From positions 1-21,581 of IMG/VR virus record IMGVR_UViG_3300028569_000194: a DNA stretch of 21,581 nt; one strand, 5' to 3'. Each line of letters starts with the position of its first letter. Position 1 is the stretch's first letter. Shown here piece after piece: positions 1 through 21,514 of the stretch. The stretch comes from a virus. The position numbers were made by a program, and so were the translations under genes. Below the pieces are notes generated by a model. That model worked only from the letters and a program-made list of their open reading frames with translations. It was not told the origin of the DNA and searched no databases.

Positions 1-1676
1 GGTAACCGCGCAAGAGGGGTAGCCCTAGAAGCTATTTTCCCGGCAAGGTTTACATTGTAATTTCCTAAAGCTTCTGGGCCTATCTTCATGTCACGCATGA
101 ACTTGGCAGCATCAAGGGCGTCGCCTTGACCCTCTGCAATGTTTTGCAAGGCACCTACAGCGCGCGCTCCAGCAGCGTCTGGGGCTTGTATGTACCTAAC
201 TAAAACTTTTTCTGTTCCAGACTCAAGTGCTTTCTGCAGTCGGTTATGGCCATTAACAACAAAATCATAACCATTTTCTGGATCTCTCCAAACACTAATA
301 ATGCCAGCAAGCTGAGGGTCGTACTCTTTGGCTTCTTTTAAAGAACCGCTAACACCTGTTCTAGTTTTTGAGCCTGCAATTTTATATTGGAATCTTTGAG
401 GATCTGCTGCAATACTTGCAGGGCGAACTTCTGCTACGTTGCGAGCAATGGGCCTATCTAGCTCGTCTGCAAAAGATGGTTGCTCGCCAGGATCTGCTTC
501 CCTTGTTTCTGTTTGCCTAACTAATTCGTTCTGAAAAGAATCATTAGCGTTCTTAACATCATCAATGGCTTCTAATACTTTTGGATCTTTTAATTTATCT
601 AATGTGTTTTTACCTTCAACAGCTTTGTTGTAATTTGCAGCAGCTTTAACTTGTTTAAAAAACCGGAAGGGCACTTCAAGGGCGCCACCAACAAGCAAAC
701 CTTCAAGGGCATTTTTAAAACGACCCTCTAGCGCCCCGTCGTTTGGATCACTTTTGAGGTAATCAATAACAAGGGATTCAAACGGTGTGCCTTTAACTAA
801 GTCGTTTGCAGCATCAGTAAGCCTGCCGGTGTATTGGTCAAAGGCAACTACATCAGTAATGGCAGATGTAATGGCAGCTTTGCCTGTTACTTGAGAAAGG
901 CCAGACTTGGCTACAGCTTGTGCGCCAGCTTGAGCAACTTGGCCAACAGGGCCTGCAGCTTTTACGCCAGCTTGCACGGCTCCTGATATTTTTGCACCGG
1001 CTTGAACGACAGGTGCTGCAGCTTGCGCAAAACCTTTAGCAGCTCTAAGCCTGGTCGTAGCTACACCAAGCCTGGCTGCCAGGGGCAAGGCGCCAAAGGC
1101 ACCTTTAATAGCCATGCCACCTAAACCTGTTGCGGCAGAGCCAGTAATAAACCCCATTCCTAGCTGTACAGCACCAACTGCCAGGTCTTCAGCAGCGCCG
1201 CTACTCCTAGCTCTAGGCAATGCAGGCAGCACACCAAGCAAAGGTGCGTCTGGTGTTTTAGCTGATGTAGGAGATTTATTGCCCGTTACTTTTGCGCCAA
1301 CTTCTTGTGCAAAATCGCTGGTTTCTTGCAACGTAGTAAGCAGAGCCCGTTGCGGAACTCTCTTAATCGCACCAGCAATACCAGTACCTTTATTGCTTTC
1401 ATCAACCATTGCCTTGGTGGTAGCACCAAAAGCTTTGCCAACGTCACCAGTTTTTTGTAAAGTCTGCAGCCCAGCCGCTCCTGCCTTTAGCCCTTGGCCC
1501 ACCATGGCAGTGGGGTTAAAAGTTTCCGCAATGCTTCTTGCGTCTGCAATTCCCTTCCCGGCCTTTTCAAGCAGCGATGGCTCGCGCTTGGGTTTGACCG
1601 CTGGCTTTTGGGTGCCAAACTCATACACCTCAGTAACCTTGCCTGTTACTGGATCGGTTTCGTACTTGACGGGCAT
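1..1676 (-). CDS. gp16-like internal (ejected) virion protein with ParB-like domain, N-terminal part
   Basis: This reading frame stays open from an ATG at 1676 to the left edge of the window, giving 558 complete codons; the C-terminus lies outside. A Shine-Dalgarno GAGGAA stands 8 nt before the ATG, and the gene begins 3 nt after the stop of the gp15-like gene. Residues about 170-270 are Ala/Gly-rich and weakly hydrophobic. A segment near 320-340 (FKNALEGLLVGGALEVPF) resembles stretches found in large internal proteins of T7-like phages. Residues about 425-550 look like a ParB N-terminal domain: VVNGHNRLQKALESG has the GHxRL core (G476, H477, R479, L480), followed by ALQNIAEGQGDALDAAKF, which fits the ParB helix that carries a conserved Asn and acidic residues. 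Position after gp14 and gp15 makes it the gp16 equivalent, probably ejected into the cell. In T7, gp16 carries a transglycosylase at its N-terminus; that domain is absent here and sits on the upstream protein. The biochemical role of the ParB domain is unknown. Confidence 0.85.
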   Translation of the reverse strand, partial: MPVKYETDPVTGKVTEVYEFGTQKPAVKPKREPSLLEKAGKGIADARSIAETFNPTAMVGQGLKAGAAGLQTLQKTGDVGKAFGATTKAMVDESNKGTGIAGAIKRVPQRALLTTLQETSDFAQEVGAKVTGNKSPTSAKTPDAPLLGVLPALPRARSSGAAEDLAVGAVQLGMGFITGSAATGLGGMAIKGAFGALPLAARLGVATTRLRAAKGFAQAAAPVVQAGAKISGAVQAGVKAAGPVGQVAQAGAQAVAKSGLSQVTGKAAITSAITDVVAFDQYTGRLTDAANDLVKGTPFESLVIDYLKSDPNDGALEGRFKNALEGLLVGGALEVPFRFFKQVKAAANYNKAVEGKNTLDKLKDPKVLEAIDDVKNANDSFQNELVRQTETREADPGEQPSFADELDRPIARNVAEVRPASIAADPQRFQYKIAGSKTRTGVSGSLKEAKEYDPQLAGIISVWRDPENGYDFVVNGHNRLQKALESGTEKVLVRYIQAPDAAGARAVGALQNIAEGQGDALDAAKFMRDMKIGPEALGNYNVNLAGKIASRATPLARL

Positions 1677-1679
1677 GGG

Positions 1680-4490
1680 TTAGGTTCCTCGTTGGACGCG
1701 GCGGAGAATGTCCATTGTGTATTCCCTAATGGAAGGATACCGTTTCCCCCCACTGGTTTGCACCCTGTTGTTGTCGTATAAATTGGGGTTGCCGCTATAC
1801 CAAGTAGAAGCAGCTCTGCGAATAGCAATAGCTTCTGAACGACCAGCCGCTCTTTCACCGTTGTAATACTCTTGCAGTTGACCCTTAACTACAGCGTCTT
1901 GAGCCGCTCTGTTGTATCTGTATTGGTTTGGGGTTAGTCGCTGCCCATAGTGCTTAGCTGTCCACGATGGCACGTTGGCAGGCATCACTTGCCCTATCCC
2001 AATTGCGCCAGAGTCTGGGTTCAGTATTTCATAGTTACCACCGCTTTCTTTACCTATAAGCGCCACCCTTAACCTTTGCCCTACATCGCCGCCAATGTAT
2101 CTGTCGGGAAGGTCGGGGCCTCCCATGCCGGTGAATCTTGTTGGAGCTGATATTTTTGCGTTAGGGTTTTTTCTAGCAAATTCATTAAGAGCATCTTGTA
2201 TTATGCGCATCACTGGTGTCGCTGTTGGAACCATGGCAAAGCCTGGGTAAGCGTTTGTAGCTGGCTCTGAAGTAGATACTTGGGTGCTGTTATCTAAATC
2301 TAAAAGTCTTTGCTCTTGCCCAGGCGCTAATTGCATATTGTGATTCTTCATTTGATTAAAGAAAAATTCACTGGGTTTTACTGTAGAACTTTTAATAATT
2401 AATTTAGTAGCATCGTCTAATTGTTTGCCGTTGCTTAAATCGTCTAATTGTTTAATTAATATAGTTTTGTCGTATAATCTTGTATTTTTTATTTGCCTGT
2501 TTAAAGCATTTACTTTTGTTGGAGTGTTTTGTTTAATGCCACCAAACATGCCGTAACCAAAACCTTGCTGTTCTAAAAGTTTTTTGTATGCCTCAGGAGT
2601 AGCTTTAGCTTGAGGGGCAGGGGTTCCTCCTCCTGTTGGGCTAGCTCCTCCCGTTGGAACAGTTCCAGGGGCTGCAGGGGTTGGAGCAGCCTTGCTGTAT
2701 TTGTCTGCAGCTTTTGAATACAAGGCTTCAAGCTCGGCACTTACATCCTTGCCTTTGCTTTGCTGGATTATGGTATTCCCTCGGCGCATTAAATCGTTCC
2801 GTTCTCTAGCGCCATCTAACTCTTCCTTTTTGCTAATTCCACCAGCTTTAAAATCTCCATAAAAACTGGTGCCAAAAGCATCTTCTTGCCGTTTCCTAAA
2901 TGTTCTATTTAAATCTTTAAGTAAATCCATGTTTAATCTATTCTCGCCAGCTTGCCGTTGTGTGTAATTTCTATTAAGTTCATTAAAGGCTTCTTGCGAT
3001 AAATTGCCGTTTCGATATTGCGTCAGTATGCGTTGCTTGCCTTGCGCAATGTCGCCAAGCATAGAAGCTTCGTACTCTCTTGTAAAAGTTTCTTGTTGTA
3101 TAGGAGCAATCCGGGCCGATGATACTGCAGCGACTACAGTGCCTAATCGAGCATTAGCAACAGCAAGTAGCTCAGGTTCGCTTCCGTAAATTGTAAGTAA
3201 TTTTTTTTCTAACTGTAGCCTAGCTTGCTGAAACTTTGTGGGGCTTGCCATTACGTCTTCGGTAAATGTATTTTTAATAAAATCTGCAGTCATATCTTCT
3301 GTGTTTTGCCTCTTCATACGGTCTTCTTCTGCTCTCTTTTCATTTAAACCTCCCTTCACCATTTTCTCTAATTCAAATCTTGCTACTGTTAATGGCACAC
3401 CAAAAGAACCTAGAAGGCTTGGCCGTTCCCCTGTGGTAACAGCCGGGCCGGTCTTAACAGCATTCAATACTGCCAATGATTCTAATATAAATTTGTCTGG
3501 GTTTTCAGCACCTTGTGCTATTACATTAAGAATTTTGCCAATGTTAGATAAAGCAGCGGCTTTATATTTTTCAAAGTTTTGCGGGGTAGTGGAATTGTAT
3601 AAGGTTTCTTCAAGTAATTGATACGCTTGGGCTGCACCATTTGGGCCTATTTGGCGTTCTTTAAGTTGTTTCATCAATTGAGAAACTTGTGAGAAATGAG
3701 TGGTAATTATTTTTTCATCAGCTGCGTCGGTATAGCGTTGTAATTGCGCAGCGTTTTGCGAACCTATAGCTTGCACTATACTCATTGAATTATTGCCTAT
3801 TGCTCTCCCATCAGCATTTTTAGGCAGCACTAACTCGGTAACCGTTTGCTTCCATTCATCCGTGGCAGGGTTTAAATCTTTTATTGGTGTGCCAAGTACG
3901 CCTGTCTTTAAAGCATTTACTTTGCTAGGCAGGCTAACAACGTTAGATTGAATCGCTAAGTTACTTAGTGCTGAGTTTACATAGCTTTGAGTTTCTGGCC
4001 AAGCTGCTCTTAATTGGTTGTAGACAGGTAGCAATGATGGGTCACTTTGAACCTTAGAACCAACGTCAGCAATTGCTTCTTTAAACGACACATAGCCTCT
4101 AGTTGCCAACGAGCCTGCAATGCTTTGAGCTTCAGCTTGATTCTCTTTAGTTTTTACTTCACGTCGTTGATCAAGGTATGTACCTAGATCCCCTAAGTTT
4201 TCGTTAAAGCCAGACAGTGCCTTGGCTAAATTAGATAAATCGTTATTAGGCCCCGGCGATGCAGGCCGGTCAAACATAAAAGGCTTACCACCTAACTCAG
4301 CTTTACCAGCTTGGATGTAGGTATTAACTGGCGCTGCTTGTGGGCTTAAGGCTGGTGTGCCCATGCTGTCTCCAGCAATAGGAGCACCGCTTGATGTTTG
4401 AGCAAGGCCACCTAGCAGGCGTTGCGATGTCGCCCCTGTGAATTTATTGAGTTGTTCAAAAGCAGATCCAGAGCCAAGTTGTTTTGCCAT
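1680..4490 (-). CDS. gp15-like internal virion protein with C-terminal lytic transglycosylase domain
   Basis: A 936-residue protein in the position of T7 gp15, one of the internal core proteins ejected to form the channel for DNA entry. Residues 1 to about 720 are polar, helical and Gln/Lys-rich, with a Pro/Gly/Thr-rich linker near 615-640, and carry no domain I recognise. The C-terminus from about 795 is an SLT-type lytic transglycosylase: IGKESGGNYE holds the expected catalytic Glu (E815), followed by GAIGIGQVMP, the usual G-x-x-Q-x-x-P element, and a final helical part with ASTWYSGNP. Such a domain would cut peptidoglycan locally during genome entry. The ATG at 4490 has GAGGGG 7 nt upstream and follows the gp14-like stop by 2 nt (TAACCATG). 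T7 gp15 is about 750 residues and has no such domain; in T7 it is on gp16, so the activity appears to have moved between neighbours. Confidence 0.9.
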   Translation of the reverse strand: MAKQLGSGSAFEQLNKFTGATSQRLLGGLAQTSSGAPIAGDSMGTPALSPQAAPVNTYIQAGKAELGGKPFMFDRPASPGPNNDLSNLAKALSGFNENLGDLGTYLDQRREVKTKENQAEAQSIAGSLATRGYVSFKEAIADVGSKVQSDPSLLPVYNQLRAAWPETQSYVNSALSNLAIQSNVVSLPSKVNALKTGVLGTPIKDLNPATDEWKQTVTELVLPKNADGRAIGNNSMSIVQAIGSQNAAQLQRYTDAADEKIITTHFSQVSQLMKQLKERQIGPNGAAQAYQLLEETLYNSTTPQNFEKYKAAALSNIGKILNVIAQGAENPDKFILESLAVLNAVKTGPAVTTGERPSLLGSFGVPLTVARFELEKMVKGGLNEKRAEEDRMKRQNTEDMTADFIKNTFTEDVMASPTKFQQARLQLEKKLLTIYGSEPELLAVANARLGTVVAAVSSARIAPIQQETFTREYEASMLGDIAQGKQRILTQYRNGNLSQEAFNELNRNYTQRQAGENRLNMDLLKDLNRTFRKRQEDAFGTSFYGDFKAGGISKKEELDGARERNDLMRRGNTIIQQSKGKDVSAELEALYSKAADKYSKAAPTPAAPGTVPTGGASPTGGGTPAPQAKATPEAYKKLLEQQGFGYGMFGGIKQNTPTKVNALNRQIKNTRLYDKTILIKQLDDLSNGKQLDDATKLIIKSSTVKPSEFFFNQMKNHNMQLAPGQEQRLLDLDNSTQVSTSEPATNAYPGFAMVPTATPVMRIIQDALNEFARKNPNAKISAPTRFTGMGGPDLPDRYIGGDVGQRLRVALIGKESGGNYEILNPDSGAIGIGQVMPANVPSWTAKHYGQRLTPNQYRYNRAAQDAVVKGQLQEYYNGERAAGRSEAIAIRRAASTWYSGNPNLYDNNRVQTSGGKRYPSIREYTMDILRRVQRGT

Positions 4491-4492
4491 GG

Positions 4493-5173
4493 TTATCCCC
4501 TCTTAGGCATGTTCATAGATTTATTGATGCCAGCCCCTGCTTGAACAAGAGCCCCTCCTGCCTGTAGCAGGTAAGGAGTAGAGCTAGGTGCTTTCTGCAT
4601 GATGGGGGCAATGGGGTCGTAGATCTGTTGCTTCACGTATTCTTGCTGAGAAGCAATCCGATTGGCCCTTTCAGAGCCAGAAGCGCGTTTCTGCTCTTGC
4701 GATTGCATAGAAGCAAAGGCTACGTTTCGATCTGTCACATAGTCGTATTGAGCTTGCTGCCTGTAGTAGTCATTAATTAGCGCATCAATGCTGTTACCGA
4801 CACGACCAGCGGCTTTGATCTCTCCCCTTGATTGCATCCCTTGTATTGCTGATTTTTGTTTTTGCTGGGCCGCGACTTCCTGCTCCTGCATCAACCGCAT
4901 GTTGATACTGCCTATCTCTTGGCCGTAAGCAATATCAGCTAGTGCTCTGGTTTGAGCCCTTAAAGCTTCTTGCTGATTGAATTTAAGATTCTCGTAGTAC
5001 CTGGCATTTGCTTGTTGGCGTTGTTGATATTCATAATTGCGCTGAGCCTCGTAATTGCGGAAGCCAACAGCTTCTTGCTCAGCTTGGTATCCAGCCTGTG
5101 CGCTAGCTATGCCTAGCCCGCCTTGAGCTACTGCCAGTACCCCAGTTGCAATGCCGCCAGTTGGATCACACAT
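4493..5173 (-). CDS. gp14-like internal virion protein
   Basis: A 226-residue protein resembling T7 gp14, the internal core protein that is ejected and thought to sit in the outer membrane at the start of infection. It begins with a short Cys-containing, Gly/Ala-rich hydrophobic segment (about residues 6-28, GIATGVLAVAQGGLGIASAQ) and continues as a long Gln/Ala/Arg-rich, strongly helical region (about 30-190) with many Tyr and Gln residues, ending in a small Gly-rich hydrophobic stretch (about 200-215). This layout and length (T7 gp14 is 196 residues) are typical of the family. The ATG overlaps the end of the gp13-like gene by 8 nt, and the gp15-like gene follows after 2 nt, so the internal proteins appear to be made from one message. 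Confidence 0.85.
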   Translation of the reverse strand: MCDPTGGIATGVLAVAQGGLGIASAQAGYQAEQEAVGFRNYEAQRNYEYQQRQQANARYYENLKFNQQEALRAQTRALADIAYGQEIGSINMRLMQEQEVAAQQKQKSAIQGMQSRGEIKAAGRVGNSIDALINDYYRQQAQYDYVTDRNVAFASMQSQEQKRASGSERANRIASQQEYVKQQIYDPIAPIMQKAPSSTPYLLQAGGALVQAGAGINKSMNMPKRG

Positions 5174-5642
5174 GGGTCACCTTGCAGAACTCCAGGAATA
5201 AACGACCTTCTGCTCCATAGTTTGGCTGTTTTGCGGTAAAAGTGAAGCCCATCCAGTCCAGCCATTTTTTATGCACGGTGTTCCGAGCATCCATGTAATT
5301 CCATAGAACGTCGTACTGCTGATCCAGGTCACCTACCCAGGTTTTAATGTTGCGCAGAAACCTGTGCCGGTTGGTAAAGTCATCGACCATAGCGTTGGTG
5401 CCTAACATCCATACTTGCCCAACCCGTGGGTTTAACTCATCAGGCACAACACCCCCAATAGCTATAGGCTTTTGGCTATGCGACAGCATTGTTTTCATTG
5501 GCTTGCTAATGCCGTAACTGTAAATCAAACAAGTTCTTGGGCTAAGGCCAGAAGCAGCTTTTACTTCCATAACGTCTGCTTCTCTCATATCTTCAGCAAC
5601 AATCTCAAGGTCGCCCCATTCAGTATCCCTAAGTAAATTCAT
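5166..5642 (-). CDS. gp13-like internal virion protein
   Basis: A 158-residue protein in the position of T7 gp13 (138 residues), a protein needed for assembly of the internal core. The sequence has the acetyltransferase-like character of the phage gp13/DUF2833 family: MREADVMEVKAASGLSP near the N-terminus, a central KPIAIGGVVPD strand-turn, VGQVWMLGTN, and a final part with NYMDARNTVHKKWLDWMGF, which in GNAT-fold proteins is the helix-turn before the last strands. Whether it binds acetyl-CoA is doubtful, and family members are best known as structural proteins. The ATG overlaps the stop of the gp12-like gene (ATGA), and the gp14-like gene overlaps its end by 8 nt, which suggests translational coupling. 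Confidence 0.82.
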   Translation of the reverse strand: MNLLRDTEWGDLEIVAEDMREADVMEVKAASGLSPRTCLIYSYGISKPMKTMLSHSQKPIAIGGVVPDELNPRVGQVWMLGTNAMVDDFTNRHRFLRNIKTWVGDLDQQYDVLWNYMDARNTVHKKWLDWMGFTFTAKQPNYGAEGRLFLEFCKVTHV

Positions 5643-8071
5643 AGCCTTGTAGCCCTACTGTGATACCAGCCTTCCCATTCAGCCGACTGGAAGCGGCAAG
5701 GCAAAGGGCTGCTGCTTGTTAATTTGATAATGGTCTTTATGTTTTCACCCATAACCGGAACTCTGTAGCGGTCAGATTTGCTGTTTAAGGTTCCGATATA
5801 GCTAGCATCGCCTGGCGTTATGGCGTTATAGGGGTAAGTTTGCGTGGCTCTGCCTTGCGGGGTAATTAAAATGTTAAAGGCTGAGGTCGTATCAAACACC
5901 ATTGTCCATGTTCTAAGCATCAGCTTTGGCCCAGCAGCTACAGCCATACCGCCGCCTGCTGGTTGTTCCATAATGTATTGAGTGCTGAATTGATAATCCA
6001 TGTTGTACAGCTCACCTACATAAAACCTTGTCCCTACCAGGGTTAAGTCACCACTTACAACTATCTGCCCGACTCCACCAGTACCACCAGTTAGCGATGT
6101 GCTAATAACGTTAGGTATTTGGCCATAGAGAAGAGGGTTGAGGGTGAAATATCTACCAACTACGCGATAGGTGGCGCCAGCTTGCAGTGGGTATGGCGGC
6201 TCAATGGTAGTTTGCACGGCCAAGCCAGAAGGCGTAGTCAATGTTGCTGTGCAAAAAGCTTCACTAACTTTGCGATCTAATAGCAATTCAATTGCTGTCG
6301 TAGTATCGTCAGTTTGGTTAGCCCTAAGTCTTATCCTTTCTAAGTACACGCCGTTAGCATATTCAACATATACATACAAATTACTGTCTATAACATTAGC
6401 GCCTACAATTGATTTAACAGTTCCAGAAAATTCCCAATACGACCAAGCTGATTGTAATTTTGTGTCATCTTGATAAGTAAATTTATAGATATAAAGTCTA
6501 CGCGGCTGGCTCTTGCTGACCAGTATTAGCATCTCTTCTGAGATGGTTGCAGTAAAAGAGCATAGGTCGCCTGGCAAATACTTGGGAATTGCCGATGTAA
6601 TTTCCTCTGATATAGGAGCAGGGCCGCTGCTATCGGGCAAGTAAAATTCTCGGATGCCAGTAAATAGACCTTTTGGTACAGCAAAATACAAAGTCCGACC
6701 AATGGCTACTGGGTCAACAGTTGCAACCATTTCAAACGCGGTCATAGAAGATATGTTTGCTGTCTTTGGCGTAAGCGCAGCAGCCACATTGCCTGTGTCT
6801 AGTCGGAACTGGCCATGGCGGCTGAACAGCAGCAGACTGTTAGCAAAAGCTGAGCTTGCAACTAGAAAGTTAATCTCTGTGCCGCCAACTGATATGTCGA
6901 TAGGGTCGCTGTCAACTACTGTTTGAACTGTTTCCGGCCAGAACCTATCGAAGCTGTCAGCTGCCGACAGAATTACGTTCTCGTCAGCTAGAAGCACCAA
7001 CCTATTCCTAAATAAGTTTATGTTTTGAATAGTTGTGCCAACAAATGAAGGGTTAGGGGCGGTAGTTGTGTCTCCCGCTACACGCTTAGCCCAATCAAAA
7101 TCTTCAAAACTAAAGTTACCAGTTGTTGGATTGCGTATTAATACATGCGGCATAGTTGCTTTATTAAATTCGTACACAATGCCAGGGGCTACAGTCTCTC
7201 TCCAAACTCCTGGGCCAAAGCCACTGCCTGCTGTCGTCTCAAATTTAACGTAGTAATCATCTAAGCCAGTAGCTTTGCTGCCTTGAATTTTTACGGTAAA
7301 ACCGTGCTCAGCAATAGTTGGCAGATCTGATATAGCATCAACCGTGCCCTTAATTGCTTTTGTCATTTCACCGTTTCTATTATCGGTAGAGCTGAGAGTG
7401 TAGGCTCCGCCGTCATTCTTAGTAATGCGAACGATGTAGTCAGAAGAAGTTGCTACAAATGAAGCATTAAAAGTAGCGTCAGCATTTAAGCTGGCGGCTA
7501 GGTTAGTGGCAATAGTTACGTTAGACGGAACAGTAGGTGACGCAGCTGTAGTTTCAGTTATGGTGATAGCATTAACTTTAATACTGTAAGTAACAGCATA
7601 GTCAGCAGTCTTAATAAACACCATGCTTTTGGTGCCCCAGTTAGCAGAGGTGGCAGCTGTCATTGCTACTACCATTTCTCTATTAACAATAAAAGTGTAG
7701 TCAGCAACAGAAGCTATCCTAAATGTTTCTGATGGTCTGCCAGCAATATTTAGATAGCCAGTTCCGTCAGGGGTGGAAACAGTTTTAGTTGTGCCATCTA
7801 TATCAAAAACTTTAATATCATTGTCTTGAATTATTATTATGTTTCTAATAGTTCCGTCTCGATCAACAATTGCAGTAAAAGGACGCTCAGATCCTGCACT
7901 GCCATTAAAAAGTTTGGCAATGTAGTAAGACGGTGGCCGCTTCTTCAAGCCTTCAACCGGGCTTGGCATACAGTTGACAACTGATTCAGCTTGGGAAGCT
8001 AAGCGCAAAGCTGCAGGCTGCAGGCTTACGCCGTTGATCAAGTTAGGAATAGAGCCAGCAATGAGGGGCAT
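5639..8071 (-). CDS. tail tubular protein B (gp12-like nozzle)
   Basis: An 810-residue protein matching T7 gp12 (794 residues), which forms the hexameric nozzle at the tip of the short tail. The start is characteristic: MPLIAGSIPNLINGVSLQP, then LASQAESVVNCMPSPVEGLKKRP, a segment shared by nearly all T7-like nozzle proteins. The rest is beta-rich with many Thr/Ser/Val stretches, including NLFRNRLVLLADENVILSAA and DIPSVGGTE-like strands (DPIDISVGGTEINFLVASS), as expected for the propeller part, and ends with the conserved PCRFQSAEWEGWYHSR. The ATG is 2 nt after the gp11 stop (TAATCATG) and has no good Shine-Dalgarno of its own, so coupling to gp11 translation is likely. The stop overlaps the gp13-like start as ATGA. 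Confidence 0.95.
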   Translation of the reverse strand: MPLIAGSIPNLINGVSLQPAALRLASQAESVVNCMPSPVEGLKKRPPSYYIAKLFNGSAGSERPFTAIVDRDGTIRNIIIIQDNDIKVFDIDGTTKTVSTPDGTGYLNIAGRPSETFRIASVADYTFIVNREMVVAMTAATSANWGTKSMVFIKTADYAVTYSIKVNAITITETTAASPTVPSNVTIATNLAASLNADATFNASFVATSSDYIVRITKNDGGAYTLSSTDNRNGEMTKAIKGTVDAISDLPTIAEHGFTVKIQGSKATGLDDYYVKFETTAGSGFGPGVWRETVAPGIVYEFNKATMPHVLIRNPTTGNFSFEDFDWAKRVAGDTTTAPNPSFVGTTIQNINLFRNRLVLLADENVILSAADSFDRFWPETVQTVVDSDPIDISVGGTEINFLVASSAFANSLLLFSRHGQFRLDTGNVAAALTPKTANISSMTAFEMVATVDPVAIGRTLYFAVPKGLFTGIREFYLPDSSGPAPISEEITSAIPKYLPGDLCSFTATISEEMLILVSKSQPRRLYIYKFTYQDDTKLQSAWSYWEFSGTVKSIVGANVIDSNLYVYVEYANGVYLERIRLRANQTDDTTTAIELLLDRKVSEAFCTATLTTPSGLAVQTTIEPPYPLQAGATYRVVGRYFTLNPLLYGQIPNVISTSLTGGTGGVGQIVVSGDLTLVGTRFYVGELYNMDYQFSTQYIMEQPAGGGMAVAAGPKLMLRTWTMVFDTTSAFNILITPQGRATQTYPYNAITPGDASYIGTLNSKSDRYRVPVMGENIKTIIKLTSSSPLPCRFQSAEWEGWYHSRATRL

Positions 8072-10701: not shown

Positions 10702-10941
10702 CTAGTTAATGGTGATGTGTTGTGGGCTGTCTTGAGTAACAACAGGTGGCTGATTAGGCTTTGACCTAGTGTTAAAAGGCGGCGGTGTATCCACCGTGAT
10801 CACTTCTCTAGGAGGGGCTGGCTCCACCTTCGTCGGCCCCAAGAGGCTGTTGCGGAATGGCGTCTCCTCCGTCTTCAGCGGGGCCTCCTGTGGGAGAGGG
10901 CAGTCCGCTTGGGATTCCTTGTTCGTCAAATTGCGGGCCAT
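10702..10941 (-). CDS. small proline-rich ORF partly overprinted on the portal gene
   Basis: A 79-residue frame whose first 134 nt lie inside the 3' end of the portal gene in another frame; the rest fills the otherwise empty gap before the scaffold gene. I recognise no family. The product is hydrophilic and Pro/Thr-rich (PPREVITVDTPPPF, NQPPVVTQDSPQ) with no membrane segment. Two things argue that it is translated: the ATG has GGAG with a 6-nt spacer (10948-10951), and its TAG is 2 nt from the scaffold ATG, which lacks its own ribosome-binding site. Against it: low-complexity composition, overlap with a real gene, and no known homologue. It could instead be a frameshifted tail of the portal protein or chance. 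Confidence 0.4.
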   Translation of the reverse strand: MARNLTNKESQADCPLPQEAPLKTEETPFRNSLLGPTKVEPAPPREVITVDTPPPFNTRSKPNQPPVVTQDSPQHITIN

Positions 10942-12586
10942 ACGGTGCTCCGGGTTGGGTAAAGTTTTTAGCTAGCTGGCCAAGGGCAGGGGATGCTAAG
11001 CCCTGCTTGGTCATTTCCATTTGCTGCATCTGTTGCTGTTGTTCTGCAGCCGCTTGAGCTGCAGCATCTAACTCTTCCTTACTCCTTACTAAATCAGTTG
11101 TGTCTATCGACACACTGTTAGCAAGACGGCGTAGCGCCTCGTCGATATTAATATACCGCTCTAATACTTCTGGGCCTAACACTTGGCTGGCAGTGGTAAT
11201 AAATTCAATCAGCTTGTTTCGATCATCGCCACGGCCAATAGCCTCAAGGCCAGTAACAGCCTTAGCAGTAATGGGATCTTTGCCGCCAGATGTTTTAGGT
11301 AGGCTTGGGATCTTGCCTTGCTTCTTAAGAACAAACATAAGGCGGCGCACCATAGGTAGCTGCAGCTCTTGAGTAAGGATCGAGTACAGGCCACCAATGC
11401 CAGCCTCCAACTCTTGGCTCATGAACCTAATCTCTTCTGCTGTTACCCTTTCGCCTGGCCGTTGGATGGCAGTGTTTAACAGGAAAGCAAATTGCAGCCT
11501 GCTCTCAATGCGATCAATCACACTGTTGGCGATGCTTAGATCCTGTGCCTTCTGGCTTTGGATAACAGTTACATCAGCTGCGTTGCCTTGAATGATTGCA
11601 CCGTTCATAGCGTTAGCTAAGGTGCGCGGCCTAGTTGTGCCGTTAGGATTAACAAGGAACAGGATCTTAGCTGCAGCAGCAGAAGCTTCCAGCACTGCTT
11701 GGTATAAAGCTTCAAGAGCTAGCAAGTCACCGTAGTATTCCTCGATGTAACTGCGGCCATACTCTTCGCCATCCACGCGGTTAAACCGCAGCGGTATCCA
11801 AGGGGATGAATCCTTCTTGCTCATGCCATGGCTGTCAGGTATCTCTTTGCCCTTTACTTCCTGATACCAGTGCACCTCGTCGCCCTTGTACTTAATGCAG
11901 GTATACATCTTGACGGTCTTCTCGGTATACATACCGTTGTCACCGTCTTCATATTCATTGCCGTACTCGTTTAAAAAATCTTCAGGCAATGCGCCTGGGT
12001 AGATCTCCTCTTCAATAATGATGTGCTCAATGTGACCCATCGGATCACGACACAAGGCGTAGCTGTTGAGGTGGTACACACGGAAGCCATCCTCTGCCAC
12101 GTACAGCAGAGCGTTACCACCTACAAGTAAATGCTTAAAGGCTTCGTGCATGGCAGCTCGACCACCATTCACTTCCATTGCCTGCATCACTGTGTTCTCT
12201 ACAGCAACCAGCGCCGACTCAAATGCACTCTTGGCTATTGCTTCAACTCCAGCTTCAGCAGCTTGCTTGAACACCTCACTGTCTACGGTCAGCTTGAAGA
12301 AGCTTTGGTTAGGTGGGAAGAGAGTGATCAGTAACTTACTGGCTAAGTAGTTAACACCTCTAGCTCCCAAGCTTTGGTAAGGGGTGCGAAGAGAACCTCT
12401 GTCCTTGTCCCCATCGTCAGGTATCAGGGTCGGGATAGTGACACGGCTGCAATCCCTAGCCCGTTGCAAGTAGGAATCTCTGTACCTTGAAAGCGACTGG
12501 TATCGGCCAGCCCCATTCAATTCGTCAAGGTCGTCTGAGTACAGATCCGACTGACGATCTACCTTGCCTGTTAGTAGGGCCTCCAT
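10808..12586 (-). CDS. portal protein (gp8-like head-tail connector)
   Basis: A 592-residue protein matching T7 gp8 (536 residues), the dodecameric portal through which DNA is packaged and ejected. The N-terminus has the conserved block RYRDSYLQRARDCSRVTIPTL, then RTPYQSLGARGVNYLASKL and LFPPNQSFFKL. The middle has WIPLRFNRVDGEEYGRS and the helical YGDLLALEALYQAVLEAS; then RPGERVTAEEIRFMSQELEA, the usual wing/crown region. The C-terminal 60 residues are Gln-, Pro- and Gly-rich and probably disordered; this part shares its DNA with the small ORF 10702-10941. The start overlaps the stop of the gp7.3-like gene (TGATG). Confidence 0.96.
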   Translation of the reverse strand: MEALLTGKVDRQSDLYSDDLDELNGAGRYQSLSRYRDSYLQRARDCSRVTIPTLIPDDGDKDRGSLRTPYQSLGARGVNYLASKLLITLFPPNQSFFKLTVDSEVFKQAAEAGVEAIAKSAFESALVAVENTVMQAMEVNGGRAAMHEAFKHLLVGGNALLYVAEDGFRVYHLNSYALCRDPMGHIEHIIIEEEIYPGALPEDFLNEYGNEYEDGDNGMYTEKTVKMYTCIKYKGDEVHWYQEVKGKEIPDSHGMSKKDSSPWIPLRFNRVDGEEYGRSYIEEYYGDLLALEALYQAVLEASAAAAKILFLVNPNGTTRPRTLANAMNGAIIQGNAADVTVIQSQKAQDLSIANSVIDRIESRLQFAFLLNTAIQRPGERVTAEEIRFMSQELEAGIGGLYSILTQELQLPMVRRLMFVLKKQGKIPSLPKTSGGKDPITAKAVTGLEAIGRGDDRNKLIEFITTASQVLGPEVLERYINIDEALRRLANSVSIDTTDLVRSKEELDAAAQAAAEQQQQMQQMEMTKQGLASPALGQLAKNFTQPGAPYGPQFDEQGIPSGLPSPTGGPAEDGGDAIPQQPLGADEGGASPS

Positions 12587-12915: not shown

Positions 12916-13137
12916 CTAAGCCTCAAGGTTGTCTTGCTGTTCACGATAGACGCTAGTTAAGACCTTAACAACATGGGCGCAGCCAGCCTGAAACCAAATA
13001 GTTCTGTCCTCGTCATCCAAGTCCGGGCACTTGTCTGCGAACAGGATGTCCAACATGTTCAATAGTTCCTTGTCAATGACGGGCCATGTCTCATCTGGGT
13101 ACTGGTCGTTCACGAAAGCTGAAGCATTGGTTCCCAT
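12916..13137 (-). CDS. small hypothetical protein
   Basis: A 73-residue acidic protein that I do not recognise. It appears soluble: a probable helix (VIDKELLNMLDILFADKC), an acidic turn (PDLDDEDR) and a second helix (IWFQAGCAHVVKVLTSVYREQQ). No catalytic motif or zinc site is visible. It overlaps the end of the exonuclease gene by 28 nt and is followed after 3 nt by the gp7.3-like gene, so it sits at the border between replication and structural genes. No Shine-Dalgarno is apparent before its ATG. Its place and the tight packing support it as a real gene. Confidence 0.7.
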   Translation of the reverse strand: MGTNASAFVNDQYPDETWPVIDKELLNMLDILFADKCPDLDDEDRTIWFQAGCAHVVKVLTSVYREQQDNLEA

Positions 13138-13853
13138 AATTTTACAGTGTCGGTTGCGTAGTCGTAATCACTATTGCGTAGTATCCGTGACAACCTGGCA
13201 TTAAGTAAAGCATCATCAAATGTTAAGCCTGCCTTCTTGTATGCAGCAAGAACTAAAGCCCACATCTCACTCAATGTAGTGGCGCCTTCTAAAATTTTTG
13301 CAGCAGTTTTTGGGCCACAACCTTTTATGCCTGGGTAATTATCAGCTGCGTCACCAGTTAAAGTTTGCAACATCCAATTGGTAACAGCTTCTGTCGAGGT
13401 AATGGTAAGCAGCGTGTCGTCCACTAATAATTTGCCGGGTATAGTACGCATGTCCTTATCAATAGCCACAATGATAGGGTCTTGGTATTCATTGCTAGTT
13501 GCTAGCAAACCAAGAACGTCATCACCTTCTAGGTTTGGTATGGTTCTTGATTCAAAGCGTTCACTGCACCACTGACGTGTTGCCTTAAGGGCTAAAGGTT
13601 TGCGCTTACCTATGCGAGTACCTTTGTACTCTGGGTATAGCTGTGCCCTAAAACTTGGATAGTCACTCCAGCACATAACAACTTTGTTATGCGAGGTAAA
13701 GCTTTTCCACCCAGCAATCTTGTCTGTTACATACGCTTTAACTGCAGATGGTTCTGAGTGAAGGGTATGAATGTACTCATCCCATCTAATGTCAGTCTCA
13801 GCTGCACAGCAAGCTGTGTAAATTAACCAGTCGGCGTCAATTAGTAGGGTCAT
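13110..13853 (-). CDS. 5'-3' exonuclease (gp6-like)
   Basis: A 247-residue FEN/5' nuclease-family protein matching T7 gp6 (300 residues), which degrades host DNA and removes RNA primers. Metal-binding acidic residues are in place: D6 and D8 (LLIDADWL), E109, D111 and D112 (NLEGDDVLG), D132 and D134 (VAIDKDM), and D168 and D171 (TGDAADNYPG). The helix-3-turn-helix DNA-binding motif follows (GIKGCGPKTAAKIL, about 175-188). The gene overlaps the zinc-ribbon gene upstream by 17 nt. In T7, DNA polymerase gene 5 precedes this gene; here the polymerase is missing. Confidence 0.95.
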   Translation of the reverse strand: MTLLIDADWLIYTACCAAETDIRWDEYIHTLHSEPSAVKAYVTDKIAGWKSFTSHNKVVMCWSDYPSFRAQLYPEYKGTRIGKRKPLALKATRQWCSERFESRTIPNLEGDDVLGLLATSNEYQDPIIVAIDKDMRTIPGKLLVDDTLLTITSTEAVTNWMLQTLTGDAADNYPGIKGCGPKTAAKILEGATTLSEMWALVLAAYKKAGLTFDDALLNARLSRILRNSDYDYATDTVKLWEPMLQLS

Positions 13854-14076
13854 TGGGTGGGTTGTAAGTAAGAGTGCCGTTAAAAATAAAAGAAGTTCTT
13901 AGTCGATCGGCGTCCCTAGTATGCGACACCGCTTCAGCAGGTATCTCAACCTCTGCTGTGTACCAGCGGTGATCACAGCTGCGGCAATGCCTCCTCCTAA
14001 TAACAAGGTTAAGCCAATCGTCAGACCGAGTACGACCAGTGACAGGTTTCTTAGCTCCACAGTTAGGGCATTGCAT
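13837..14076 (-). CDS. NrdR-like zinc-ribbon protein
   Basis: A 79-residue protein with a four-cysteine zinc ribbon: C3 and C6 (MQCPNCGAKK) and C31 and C34 (CRSCDHRWYT), separated by a basic run RRR (27-29). The pattern MxCPxCG...VIRRRxCxxCxxRxxTxE is that of the DNA-binding N-terminal domain of NrdR, the repressor of ribonucleotide reductase genes. The ATP-cone that NrdR needs for nucleotide sensing is absent, and the second half (HTRDADRLRTSFIFNGTL) is unrelated. Its start overlaps the primase-helicase stop (TAATG) and its end overlaps the exonuclease start. It occupies the place where T7 encodes DNA polymerase. A DNA-binding role is likely; the target is unknown. Confidence 0.75.
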   Translation of the reverse strand: MQCPNCGAKKPVTGRTRSDDWLNLVIRRRHCRSCDHRWYTAEVEIPAEAVSHTRDADRLRTSFIFNGTLTYNPPNDPTN

Positions 14077-15677
14077 TAGAAGTAACTCGATAATGGTTTG
14101 ATAAGTCTGCCTTTAACGCTGTCGTACAACAGCTTGTCGCACAATCCAGTCTCTCCGCTAAACCTATTCTTTAATACTCTTAGCTGTAACTCATTACGTT
14201 CATCTGCCTGCCCCTGCTGGTTGCGTTCAGCACCAATCACCATGTCACTGAGCTGGGCAATAGCGTGGCTGCCACGCAACGCGCTTAAGGTAGTGGCCGC
14301 TCCCTCTTCATGGCCCCTGCCTTCAGGTCGTTTCAGGTGCGACACAAGGATGATGCCTACGCCTGATTGCTCAACCACTTGCCGCAGCTTGGTGCATGTC
14401 ACATCAATGGCACGGCGCTCATCTATGTCAGCTAAGCCACTAACCAATATGGTTAAGTGATCAAGAATAACTACATCACAACCTTCACCATCAGCCATGT
14501 ATTTAATCTTGTTAATTAAATGGTCAGGCTCCATGCTGCCAAAGTGATCATACAAATAACAACGACCACTAGCTAACAAACTATCAAAGGCTTCTTTAAT
14601 TTCTTTCTCACTAGCTAAGTCTTGGTTTAAGTGTATTGGTTTATTTAATTGAATGCCAATCAAGCCTTGCATGGTGCGCTTAATTGATTCCTCTAGTGCT
14701 ATGTAACCCACCTTCATGCCATTCAACAGAAAGTGGTGCGCCCATTCCCTACAAATACTGGACTTACCTATGCCACTGCCAGCGCATATCGTAACCATCT
14801 CACCCTTCCTAAACCCACGGGTCATTGCGTCTAACGCAGGCCACGGGTAAGGGCACACTGCCCCTGCCTGTGGTTTGATCAACTCATCCCATAGTTCACA
14901 CGCATTAACTATTCCGTCTGGCCGAGACGGCGTAGCCTTCCACAACAGATCCCTAAGTTGATCACCTTCATTGCTAAGCAGCATCTCGTTTGCATCCTTG
15001 CGGGGCAACCGACAGATCGCTGCCTTACCTAATGGCAAGACTGTCAACGCATCAGTTGATGCCTTAACTCCCGGCTCGTCACTGTCAAAGCACAGAACAA
15101 TGCGCTCGAACTGACTGAGCCAGACAGAGTTAGCAGCCAGGTATTTCTTGGCTGACTGCGCACCGTTAGGCAGGGATACGACTGGGTATTTATTACCTTG
15201 CACTTGGCTGACGCTCATTGCGTCAATCTCACCCTCAGTAATGACAACAAATTTCTGGGCTCCGCCGCCAATACCTTGCCGCCATAGGTGCTGACCCCAT
15301 AACTGCATGTCCTTTGGTTCACCTAGCCATTGAAACCGCTTGTCTTTATCGCGTAGGTGTTGAGCTATTACCTTGCCGGATTGATCCCTGAACTCTGATA
15401 CCTGTACCTGCCTGCCATGGTGGTCGGCACAACCGTAATTAAATAAGGCTGCTGTCTCTTTAGTTATGCCACGCTTGGGCATAGCTTTAATAGACACGAA
15501 CCCTATTAAAGGTTTGTCGCTTGGATAGACTTCTTGTACTACCGTCATGGGTATTTCTTTAGGTTGGATCTGGTGGCCACAACCAAAGCAATGGCTATGG
15601 CCGTCGTCGTACACAGCAAGGTTGTCTTTGCTGCCACAAGCAGGGCACGGTTCATGCCGCAGAAGTTTGGATGTCAT
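14076..15677 (-). CDS. DNA primase-helicase (gp4-like)
   Basis: A bifunctional replication protein matching T7 gp4A; 533 residues from the chosen start (T7: 566). In this numbering the primase zinc-binding domain has C11, C14, C30 and C33 (CPACG, HCFGC). The TOPRIM domain shows EGE at 148-150 and DSDEPG at 198-203. The helicase has Walker A GSGIGKSS (300-307), Walker B VVILDH (D406), the H-motif SHLKRPEG, the GHEEGAATTLSALRGSHA segment and the AERNQQG arginine region, all nearly as in T7. Upstream in-frame starts exist (ATG 15725, TTG 15752) but would overlap endonuclease further; the 15677 ATG gives the usual short lead before the first Cys. None has a clear Shine-Dalgarno. Confidence 0.96.
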   Translation of the reverse strand: MTSKLLRHEPCPACGSKDNLAVYDDGHSHCFGCGHQIQPKEIPMTVVQEVYPSDKPLIGFVSIKAMPKRGITKETAALFNYGCADHHGRQVQVSEFRDQSGKVIAQHLRDKDKRFQWLGEPKDMQLWGQHLWRQGIGGGAQKFVVITEGEIDAMSVSQVQGNKYPVVSLPNGAQSAKKYLAANSVWLSQFERIVLCFDSDEPGVKASTDALTVLPLGKAAICRLPRKDANEMLLSNEGDQLRDLLWKATPSRPDGIVNACELWDELIKPQAGAVCPYPWPALDAMTRGFRKGEMVTICAGSGIGKSSICREWAHHFLLNGMKVGYIALEESIKRTMQGLIGIQLNKPIHLNQDLASEKEIKEAFDSLLASGRCYLYDHFGSMEPDHLINKIKYMADGEGCDVVILDHLTILVSGLADIDERRAIDVTCTKLRQVVEQSGVGIILVSHLKRPEGRGHEEGAATTLSALRGSHAIAQLSDMVIGAERNQQGQADERNELQLRVLKNRFSGETGLCDKLLYDSVKGRLIKPLSSYF

Positions 15678-16125
15678 TGCTAAACCATGTGGTGGGGATG
15701 TGGCCTTGGCACCAGAGAAACCCATGGCGTTCAGCCCATTGCCAATAAGCAAGGGACTTAGGTGCCTTAGATAATTTCACTTGTGCATTCTGGAAACACA
15801 AGCGAATATCCAGCAATGGGTACTGGCTTTTAACAGCCAGCATCTTGCGCCGATCATCAGAACTGAAGTGCCCTTTGGTTTCTACTACTACCCCATTAGG
15901 CAAGAAGAAGTCAGGGGTGTAGGTAGCTCTGATTATGTAACCAAAGCTTCGAGCTTCGTACTGAAACTCAAGGCCACGCTGTAGAACAGAGGCAGCAACA
16001 GCTGCCTCGTACTTGCTGCGGTACTTAGAAGAGAGCGTCGTCTTCTTGGATTGGTTCAGCGTTGAACGGGACTGGCGGGGTAACTGCTGCCCCTTGCGTC
16101 CACCCTTCCTCTGAGCCAAAGCCAT
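15652..16125 (-). CDS. endonuclease I, Holliday junction resolvase (gp3-like)
   Basis: A 157-residue protein matching T7 gp3 (149 residues), which resolves branched DNA and helps degrade host DNA. The catalytic set is complete: E40 (SKYEAAVA), D72 (YTPDFFLPNG), E82 and K84 (VVETKG), with spacing close to that of T7 E20, D55, E65 and K67. DIRLCFQNAQVKLSKAPKS and the final WAERHGFLW are also typical. The first 30 residues form a basic extension (RKGGRKGQQLPRQSR) not present in T7; it is encoded out of frame over the last 101 nt of the SSB gene. No good Shine-Dalgarno is seen before the ATG, and no later ATG precedes the conserved part, so the extension is probably real. Confidence 0.95.
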   Translation of the reverse strand: MALAQRKGGRKGQQLPRQSRSTLNQSKKTTLSSKYRSKYEAAVAASVLQRGLEFQYEARSFGYIIRATYTPDFFLPNGVVVETKGHFSSDDRRKMLAVKSQYPLLDIRLCFQNAQVKLSKAPKSLAYWQWAERHGFLWCQGHIPTTWFSNDIQTSAA

Positions 16126-20104: not shown

Positions 20105-20331
20105 TGAGCCCCCAGCAGCTCGCGGCGCTGCAATCTGTAGAGGGAGAGCTTGCGATCCAACCCATAGAGCAGATCGGCATACCCTCCCGGCTCAACGTCC
20201 TTGTGCGGGGTGCTGAGTTCCCCTGATGCGCAGCGTATCAACGTATATAAGAGATCATGTTCCTCCTGCGTAAGCAAGGGAAAGGCCCGGCTTTCGCCGG
20301 GATAGTTTGCCTCTGGGTAGTGGCGGCTCAT
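20101..20331 (-). CDS. small hypothetical early protein
   Basis: A 76-residue protein, not recognised. It appears soluble, with two helices: LTQEEHDLLYTLIRCASGEL (about 20-39) and GYADLLYGLDRKLSLYRLQRREL (about 50-72). It has one cysteine and no visible catalytic motif. Its ATG overlaps the ArdC stop (ATGA), and its stop overlaps the next start in the same way, so translation of all three is probably coupled. The coupling makes it likely to be a real gene although nothing can be said of its function. Confidence 0.65.
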   Translation of the reverse strand: MSRHYPEANYPGESRAFPLLTQEEHDLLYTLIRCASGELSTPHKDVEPGGYADLLYGLDRKLSLYRLQRRELLGAQ

Positions 20332-21308
20332 GCTTCCACCTCGTGGGTAGTGGTGCCGGTGATCAGATCAGCGGCGGCCCTTGATTTACTTAGGATCTTA
20401 AACAGCTGTTTGGGTTCAGCTCTTAACGCTGACGCCCAACCTTTTAGGTAGGCCGCGTGATTGGTAAACTCTGAGCCTATCTGCAGGCGGTAGCAAATGA
20501 GCACCGCTGCAAGCTCAGCAATCAGCTCCTCTAGGGCGTAGGTTTTAGACGATGAGCCGCCGCCCATATCACGGTTCAGCCTTGAGCTATGGCCCGTGCT
20601 GTGTGCCTGTTCATGAGCCCAGGTTGCACAGAATGCCTCGCGGTTCATGAACGAGTCAGCCGGTGGCATGGTGATCTGATCACGCGTCGGGCTGTAGGAG
20701 GCCCGGCCCCCCTCAAACGTGGTGATCACTTCCCAAGATTCAAGCACTGCCTCGGCACCCTCCAGCCTGGCAGCTGGTGCCGCTGGCTCGCCCTGTCCTA
20801 GTGCTGCCTTAATGGCTGCATCGAGGGCGGCTTGGCTTTCCTCGGTGGCCCCTTGTAGGTCTGCCGCATTGAATACGGCAACAGCTTTAAAGCTCACCCA
20901 TGCCCGCGATTGATCGACAATCTCAGGCTGGCCGGTCTGGACGTTGTTCATCTCCACTTGGTCGGTGTAGCTGTTCAGCTGCGGGCGGATTATCCGGCAG
21001 GCTTTGGTGCCCTTGCGAGGCCACCAGCCCAACGGCTTACCCTGCCCAGCTCCAAGCCATAACGGCAACGAGTGGCCGCGGCTGAGGCTGCCAAGCTCCA
21101 GTAATAGAGGATTACTGCCGCTGTACTCGGCACCGGTAACAAGGTTGCGGTGGTTGCCGCTGTGCCCGTGCCATTCACGCCGCCAAGGTGGCAGCTCTGC
21201 TGATTCCATTAGCGCCACTAGGTCAGCTGCTAACTGTTCCTCAGGTGTTGGCCCGTCGTATTGCTTGCGGGCCCTGGTGCTGGTGGTCTTGGTTGTGGTG
21301 GCGGTCAT
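20328..21308 (-). CDS. ArdC-like antirestriction protein (ssDNA-binding domain plus zincin)
   Basis: A 326-residue protein with the two-domain layout of ArdC. The N-terminal ssDNA-binding domain (DUF1738/ArdC-N, about residues 15-115 and onward) shows ELPPWRREWH, HRNLVTGAEYSGSNPLLL and GKPLGWWPRKGTKA. The C-terminal zincin-like metallopeptidase domain has HEQAHSTGH (HExxH at 232-236) and the third-ligand helix ALEELIAELAA, as in the polyvalent-protein metallopeptidase family. ArdC of plasmids and related phage proteins protect incoming DNA from restriction. The ATG at 21308 is preferred over 21356 because GGGAGG stands 9 nt upstream (21318-21323) and it forms a TGATG overlap with the previous stop. 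Its early place corresponds to that of the T7 antirestriction gene 0.3. The middle (about 135-190) is Ala/Gln-rich and may be an insertion. Confidence 0.9.
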   Translation of the reverse strand: MTATTTKTTSTRARKQYDGPTPEEQLAADLVALMESAELPPWRREWHGHSGNHRNLVTGAEYSGSNPLLLELGSLSRGHSLPLWLGAGQGKPLGWWPRKGTKACRIIRPQLNSYTDQVEMNNVQTGQPEIVDQSRAWVSFKAVAVFNAADLQGATEESQAALDAAIKAALGQGEPAAPAARLEGAEAVLESWEVITTFEGGRASYSPTRDQITMPPADSFMNREAFCATWAHEQAHSTGHSSRLNRDMGGGSSSKTYALEELIAELAAVLICYRLQIGSEFTNHAAYLKGWASALRAEPKQLFKILSKSRAAADLITGTTTHEVEA

Positions 21309-21514
21309 CAGATCGCGCCTCCCTTGGTGGTGGTGGTGTTGTTGCTTGGCTGCCATCCCAAATGGCGGCCATACATAGCTGTTAAGCCTGCCTTTACTGC
21401 GGCATAAGTCTCCGCGTATTGCTGCTCTTGGTCTGAGCCTGCGTCCGCTAAATCCTCAACTGTTGAAAGCAAGGCTGCACGTATCCGCAGCCAATCAAAT
21501 TGTGTTAGTTCCAT
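21308..21514 (-). CDS. small hypothetical early protein
   Basis: A 68-residue protein, not recognised. The first 50 residues look helical (FDWLRIRAALLSTVEDLADA, then QQYAETYAAVKAGLTAMYG), and the end is a Thr-rich tail (SNNTTTTKGGAI). There is no membrane segment or metal site. Its stop and the ArdC start overlap as TGATG, which supports its translation and coupling to ArdC. Only a weak Shine-Dalgarno-like AGAG precedes its ATG. Confidence 0.6.
   Translation of the reverse strand: MELTQFDWLRIRAALLSTVEDLADAGSDQEQQYAETYAAVKAGLTAMYGRHLGWQPSNNTTTTKGGAI

Follow-up and report, generated by a model that had tools for sequence, protein, structure and literature searches.

Chromosomal and plasmid ParB, Noc and KorB proteins are CTP-switch DNA clamps. 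In B. subtilis ParB, the E78Q and E111Q variants still bind CTP, shut the gate and trap DNA, yet fail to hydrolyse the nucleotide, and the G77S and R80A variants lose CTP binding (PMC8494293). Myxococcus PadC, which is without E78 and the ENLQR motif (both glutamates absent), binds CTP without hydrolysis (PMC8494293). Polyvalent proteins, and ParB-like domains within them, are also already known (PMC5512222). The genes that occupy the T7 gp16 slot in cyanophages related to P-SCSP1 (MPP-C) were guessed by the authors of that work to encode internal virion proteins, judging from size and position, and received no functional annotation (PMC9860041). In the cryo-EM paper on the relative P-SCSP1u, the portal, adaptor, nozzle, fibre and capsid are modelled, and a term search of its text gave nothing on core proteins.

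In a T7-like aquatic phage, we describe a gp16-slot protein that carries a predicted ParB-type module. No earlier report of ParB in ejection or internal virion proteins was found in the literature searched. As far as that literature shows, the following points are new: a canonical ParB N-domain and HTH module as the common part, its position in gp16-slot proteins, including those of isolate cyanophages, its transfer more than once to portals and to long proteins of the tape-measure type, and the loss of the hydrolysis residues. A defined and testable biochemical module is now placed in a protein previously guessed to be an internal virion protein (PMC9860041), and cultured isolates exist for testing (P-SCSP1 on Prochlorococcus MED4).

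Genomic context of the gp16-slot gene

The window, i.e. the whole stretch of DNA analysed, comprises 21,581 nt of IMG/VR record IMGVR_UViG_3300028569_000194, a linear fragment of 21.6 kb. Its genes follow a T7-like order: RNA polymerase, SSB, endonuclease I, primase-helicase, exonuclease, portal, scaffold, capsid, tube, nozzle, gp13-like, gp14-like and gp15-slot. The last ORF begins with an ATG just after the gp15-slot gene, encodes 558 aa and is open at the left contig edge. The relevant features are as follows.

3..1676 (-): gp16-slot internal virion protein gene, 5' part (558 codons); the rest lies beyond the contig end; relatives L003 and L002 are 81-90% identical here
3..440 (-): ParB-like N-domain (residues 413-~540) and first HTH residues, cut at 558 (AlphaFold2, Foldseek against the PDB, hhalign)
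99..155 (-): GALQNIAEGQGDALDAAKF, equivalent of ParB ENLQREDLNPIEE
240..263 (-): FVVNGHNR motif, equivalent of ParB GERR (nucleotide-phosphate motif)
630..945 (-): N-terminal region (residues ~245-348) common to internal virion proteins of Pelagibacter phages Gjalp and S30-C28
1680..4490 (-): gp15-slot internal virion protein, by position (Pfam SLT E=0.012, below cut-off)
~1809-2069 (-): SLT-like transglycosylase motif near the C-terminus of the gp15-slot protein (Pfam SLT E=0.012, below cut-off)
4493..5173 (-): gp14-like internal virion protein (PF24072, E=2.7e-11)
5166..5642 (-): gp13-like protein (PF11090, E=5.4e-8; phrog_308, E=1e-38)
5639..8071 (-): nozzle, gp12 (PF25675, E=1.8e-227)
10811-12586: portal (PF12236)

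A preliminary description of this DNA, made from the letters alone, had placed the truncated frame in the T7 gp16 slot. The placement held: in the window, the gp15-slot, gp14-like, gp13-like, nozzle, tube and capsid genes lie upstream of the frame in T7 order, and in every one of the 54 distinct contigs that extend upstream and allowed its recognition, the gp15-slot gene directly precedes the module ORF. Relative L003 has a complete gene of 2608 aa (81% identical to the window part), and L002 has 2044 aa, still open (90% identical). Beyond the contig end, the gene is described here from such relatives. A 2563-aa "hypothetical protein" of the Prochlorococcus phage isolate P-SCSP1g and a 1484-aa protein of the fosmid phage S31-C1 occupy the same place. 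The module is present, unannotated, in the Prochlorococcus P-SCSP1 isolate phages, where it is ~340 aa long and belongs to the product of PSCSP1g_00025 (ULF49719). Judged by the relatives, the full gene product is about 2000-2700 aa long.

Both ends of the protein resemble known internal virion proteins. The N part is 41-48% identical to those of Gjalp and S30-C28, with residues ~251-344 aligning to 163-251 of the 1234-aa "internal virion protein" of Gjalp. The C-terminus of L003 aligns to 755-1003 of the same Gjalp protein (E 9e-18), and the C-terminal part matches the phrog_6651 internal virion protein (E 2e-28). Since both ends match the Gjalp protein, the block from ParB to zincin is most readily understood as having been inserted into a protein of the gp16 slot. 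In T7, transglycosylase (SLT) activity is part of gp16. The window-type protein shares the gene slot of T7 gp16, and its two ends are related to Autographiviridae proteins annotated as internal virion protein; it differs in holding an inserted, effector-like block of ~1300 aa, and the SLT-like motif sits instead at the end of the gp15-slot protein. The best explanation of these features is that the window gene encodes a very large gp16-position ejection protein of the polyvalent type, the presence of which in the virion we infer.

Fold and family of the ParB-like module

The preliminary description pointed to GHNRL and a following ALQN...AAKF helix as signs of a ParB N-domain. Both are real, at residues 476-480 (window 237-251) and within residues 508-526 (window 99-155), respectively, and the conservation of NGHxR across the family together with a significant fold match speaks against a chance occurrence. 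The module starts at residue ~413, and its HTH half is lost at the contig end at residue 558. The full-length relatives show that the domain in the window is half of a ~220-aa ParB N-domain and HTH module.

An alignment of 34 sequences over a ~357-aa region was the basis of an AlphaFold2 model, with the L003 row as the query and the window row included. The model of the module region had a pLDDT of 81.5 and a pTM of 0.74. In a Foldseek search against the PDB, the top 32 matches were all ParB, Noc, KorB or Spo0J (best 6t1f_D, E 1.5e-6, prob 1.00), and the alignment spanned ~210 columns, corresponding to the N-domain plus HTH; PadC, SbnI, sulfiredoxin and a serine kinase followed far lower. When the N-domain and HTH columns were compared by hhalign with ten canonical ParBs, 210 colinear columns aligned with an E of 2.2e-7, placing GHNR on GERR and QNIAEGQGTPIDAA on ENLQREDLNPIEE. 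The N-domain alone gave 0.0027 and the HTH alone 4e-4, and the DdrB set, like the zincin and ART alignments used as controls, gave values within 0.05-0.8. The structure model and the profile comparison thus put the module region inside the ParB/Srx fold, as had been proposed from the motifs.

As a single sequence, the window protein had no match in Pfam and only a chance match by phmmer in the PDB, and hmmsearch of the family profile against the PDB also gave chance matches only. The commonest weak match was the Pfam ParB HTH model (HTH_ParB, PF17762), found in 6 of the 34 members with a best E of 5.7e-5. AlphaFold2 predicted a third helical part after the HTH (hhalign to ParB, E 0.47), in which no ParB-like C-terminal dimerisation domain was recognised, and the 21,581 nt contained no canonical parS.

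According to the model and the profiles, the module is ParB-like in the narrow sense (N-domain plus HTH) and not DdrB-like. It shares with ParB, Noc and KorB the fold and order of the two domains and the positions of the GxxR and N motifs. It differs from them in that GERR is replaced by GHNR and ENLQR by [QTE]N[IM], in the lack of a recognised C-terminal dimerisation domain and of a known ParA partner, and in being embedded in what are presumably virion proteins.

Residues of the nucleotide pocket

The equivalents of B. subtilis ParB G77, R80 and N112 (the Asn of ENLQR) were invariant in all 46 aligned members covering the site, and the G, H and R of NGHxR were kept in all 46 covering that motif. 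In the L003 module, the invariant Arg and Asn are at positions 77 and 110. The E78 position was His in 46 of 46, and the E111 position was occupied by Gln (23), Thr (14), Glu (5), Ala (3) or Ile (1). With E78 always His, E111 rarely Glu, and G77, R80 and Asn retained, the module is predicted to be a nucleotide-binding clamp that is poor at hydrolysis. By analogy with the B. subtilis variants, we infer that it keeps nucleotide binding and that hydrolysis is weak or lost. The preliminary description had left a choice between a nuclease and a CTP-binding module; the pattern of retained and lost residues favours a nucleotide-binding clamp, with probably weak or no hydrolysis. The likeness to PadC, also ParB-like, is partial, as the ENLQR motif is wholly lost in PadC whereas its Asn is kept in the phage module, and PadC is not a phage protein. 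We must also note that GHxR occurs in ATP-using ParB/Srx enzymes as well, so that the nucleotide may be another than CTP. The similarity of GHNR to GHHR/GCHR, motifs found in ParB/Srx enzymes that are not clamps, counts against the clamp reading.

Domains downstream of the module

Further domains toward the C-terminus, as had been anticipated, are present in the full-length relatives. Every T7-like member that is long enough to include the region and can be aligned to the profile has an HExxH domain downstream of the module. In the 34-row alignment of this domain, H95, E96, H99 and E145 are invariant, as in a zincin with glutamate as the third ligand. An ART-like domain is found in about 30 members, nearly always after the HExxH domain, and in L003 and L011 the ParB module is immediately followed by another kind of ART-like domain. 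The zincin-like and ART-like assignments are at the level of motifs. The AlphaFold2 model of the HExxH and ART part had a mean pLDDT of 67, and its best Foldseek match was an ART enzyme (E 0.1, prob 0.72), followed by an HExxH domain (E 0.76). Polyvalent proteins are marked by at least two disparate domains per chain, and the relatives combine a ParB module with HExxH...E and ART-like domains, the latter two at motif level.

L002 and L003 share ~90% identity as far as residue 783 and ~75% identity again after a ~305-aa cassette (~784-1087) by which they differ, so that the block behaves as a set of swappable cassettes. The cassette lies directly after the module. S31-C1 and L102 represent a second lineage, in which one gene encodes the block and another is the large ORF that comes next.

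Distribution of the module among phage proteins

Outside the gp16 slot, in unrelated phages, the module was located at the C-terminus of three lambda-type portals (L071, L072 and L084; E ~1e-108 to 1e-113). One Mu-type portal also ends in it (L091; E 3e-96), and it occurs in an ORF directly beside the portal in L074 and L094. It was also found inside tape-measure-type proteins of 4000-5600 aa, one of which (L083) has a TMP_3 match, and in ORFs of ~400 aa. Bacterial genomes held 12 module loci, half of them cyanobacterial.

Two of the loci merit a separate remark. At L094:6427-10210, a Mu-type portal with an InPase polyvalent-type domain is followed by the ParB-module ORF; the contig was binned as Woesearchaeota and is probably a mis-binned bacterial phage. 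At L102:285-16860, T7-like genes with a ParB-module gp16-slot protein occur in a Sphingomonadaceae MAG, the slot being split into two ORFs as in S31-C1.

In the module tree, the main T7-like clade was on one branch (100/100), and S31-C1 and L102 were placed elsewhere (98/94), both on long branches that make the placement less sure. The nozzle tree also set S31-C1 apart from the main clade (100/100). Taken together, the two trees suggest that T7-like phages apparently gained the module in the gp16 slot at least two times independently, unless repeated loss is preferred.

The PHROGs family phrog_21, labelled "portal protein", matches window residues 409-557 at profile positions ~1013-1327. We rejected the identification of the gp16-slot protein as a portal, since the window has its own portal at 10811-12586. 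In our opinion, fusions of the module to portals are the source of this label; PHROGs annotation can therefore mislabel gp16-slot proteins as portals.

Possible function of the module

The spread of the module suggests a DNA-gripping device carried in the virion, and its repeated attachment to ejection proteins, to portals and to proteins of the tape-measure type suggests a common, yet unnamed step of DNA exit or entry. Our preferred reading, which we hold to be about evenly balanced between right and wrong, is a virion ParB-type clamp acting on exiting or entering DNA. The conserved ends of the gp16-slot protein flank an inserted block in which a ParB-type module (CTP-pocket N-domain and HTH) comes first, followed by a zincin-like domain with HExxH and, in many relatives, by one of ART-like type. 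The protein would reside in the virion and leave the particle with the DNA, and the module may grip the DNA leaving the particle or entering the cell by closing as a nucleotide-loaded clamp. Because both hydrolysis glutamates are lost, the clamp, once shut, would probably stay shut, which fits a single-use device. It might hold the leading DNA, assist in drawing it in or in ordering its entry, or protect it against host nucleases, and the zincin-like domain may cut the clamp free of the ejection part. If true, ParB-type clamps extend to phage genome delivery. A more specific version, in which unrelated phages have repeatedly grafted a hydrolysis-dead, one-way ParB clamp onto the proteins through or beside which their DNA exits, so that the leading genome end is gripped, ratcheted or guarded during entry, is tentative and to us rather doubtful.

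It is less probable that the role is purely structural, with the module bound, close to the portal or core, to the end of the packaged DNA, which it would organise or retain, and with no action in the cell. Portals do not leave the particle; this explanation therefore stays a serious rival, and the carriers need not have delivery into the cell in common. The gp16-slot, portal and tape-measure-type carriers all share contact with packaged or exiting DNA. However, the HExxH and ART-like domains that belong to the same chain are hard to reconcile with a place inside a capsid, and one neighbouring portal holds an InPase polyvalent-type domain.

A nuclease directed against the host or competitors, nicking or degrading DNA after injection, is likewise less probable. 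The polyvalent setting and the other conflict-type domains in the chain speak for it, and ParB/Srx nucleases are known, such a role having been proposed for the ParB-like domains of polyvalent proteins (PMC5512222). Nevertheless, the closest structures belong to HTH-containing DNA-clamp CTPases, not to nucleases, and in the portal and tape-measure-type fusions a nuclease would be exposed to the phage's own packaged DNA. As all carriers share contact with packaged or leaving DNA, we favour a DNA-holding role over a host-directed nuclease.

That the fold is degenerate and retained as an inert spacer is very unlikely: two catalytic glutamates are indeed replaced, but 23 positions, including the nucleotide motif, are invariant over 34 members with identity down to ~31%.

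Membership in the DdrB-like ParB family of polyvalent proteins can be dismissed with near certainty: P1 DdrB (PF18763) shares the ParB/Srx superfamily, a late-gene setting and a large multidomain architecture, but its motif is ESGNGR, it has no HTH_ParB match, hhalign gave 0.29-0.7 (no better than the controls), and PF18763 matched neither the window nor its relatives (E<=1; E<=10), whereas P1 DdrB as positive control scored 2e-39 to 6e-42. Of the link to polyvalent proteins drawn in the preliminary description, the conflict-type domains in the same chain were borne out, but the module itself is closer to canonical ParB.

Other genes of the window

Between the primase-helicase and the 5'-3' exonuclease (window 13113-15752) there is no DNA polymerase A gene, the sole gene being a 79-aa NrdR-type zinc ribbon. 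PolA was missing from all module-bearing T7-like records tested (11 of these >=33 kb) and was present in 11 of 13 relatives without the module; the two that lack it are the cyanophages P-SCSP2 and S-SRP02. According to the nozzle tree, the correlation depends on about two lineages and is possibly a clade effect. The window also carries a separate ArdC-type antirestriction gene at 20331-21356, with ArdcN (E 5e-15) and MPTase-PolyVal (E 2e-35) matches.
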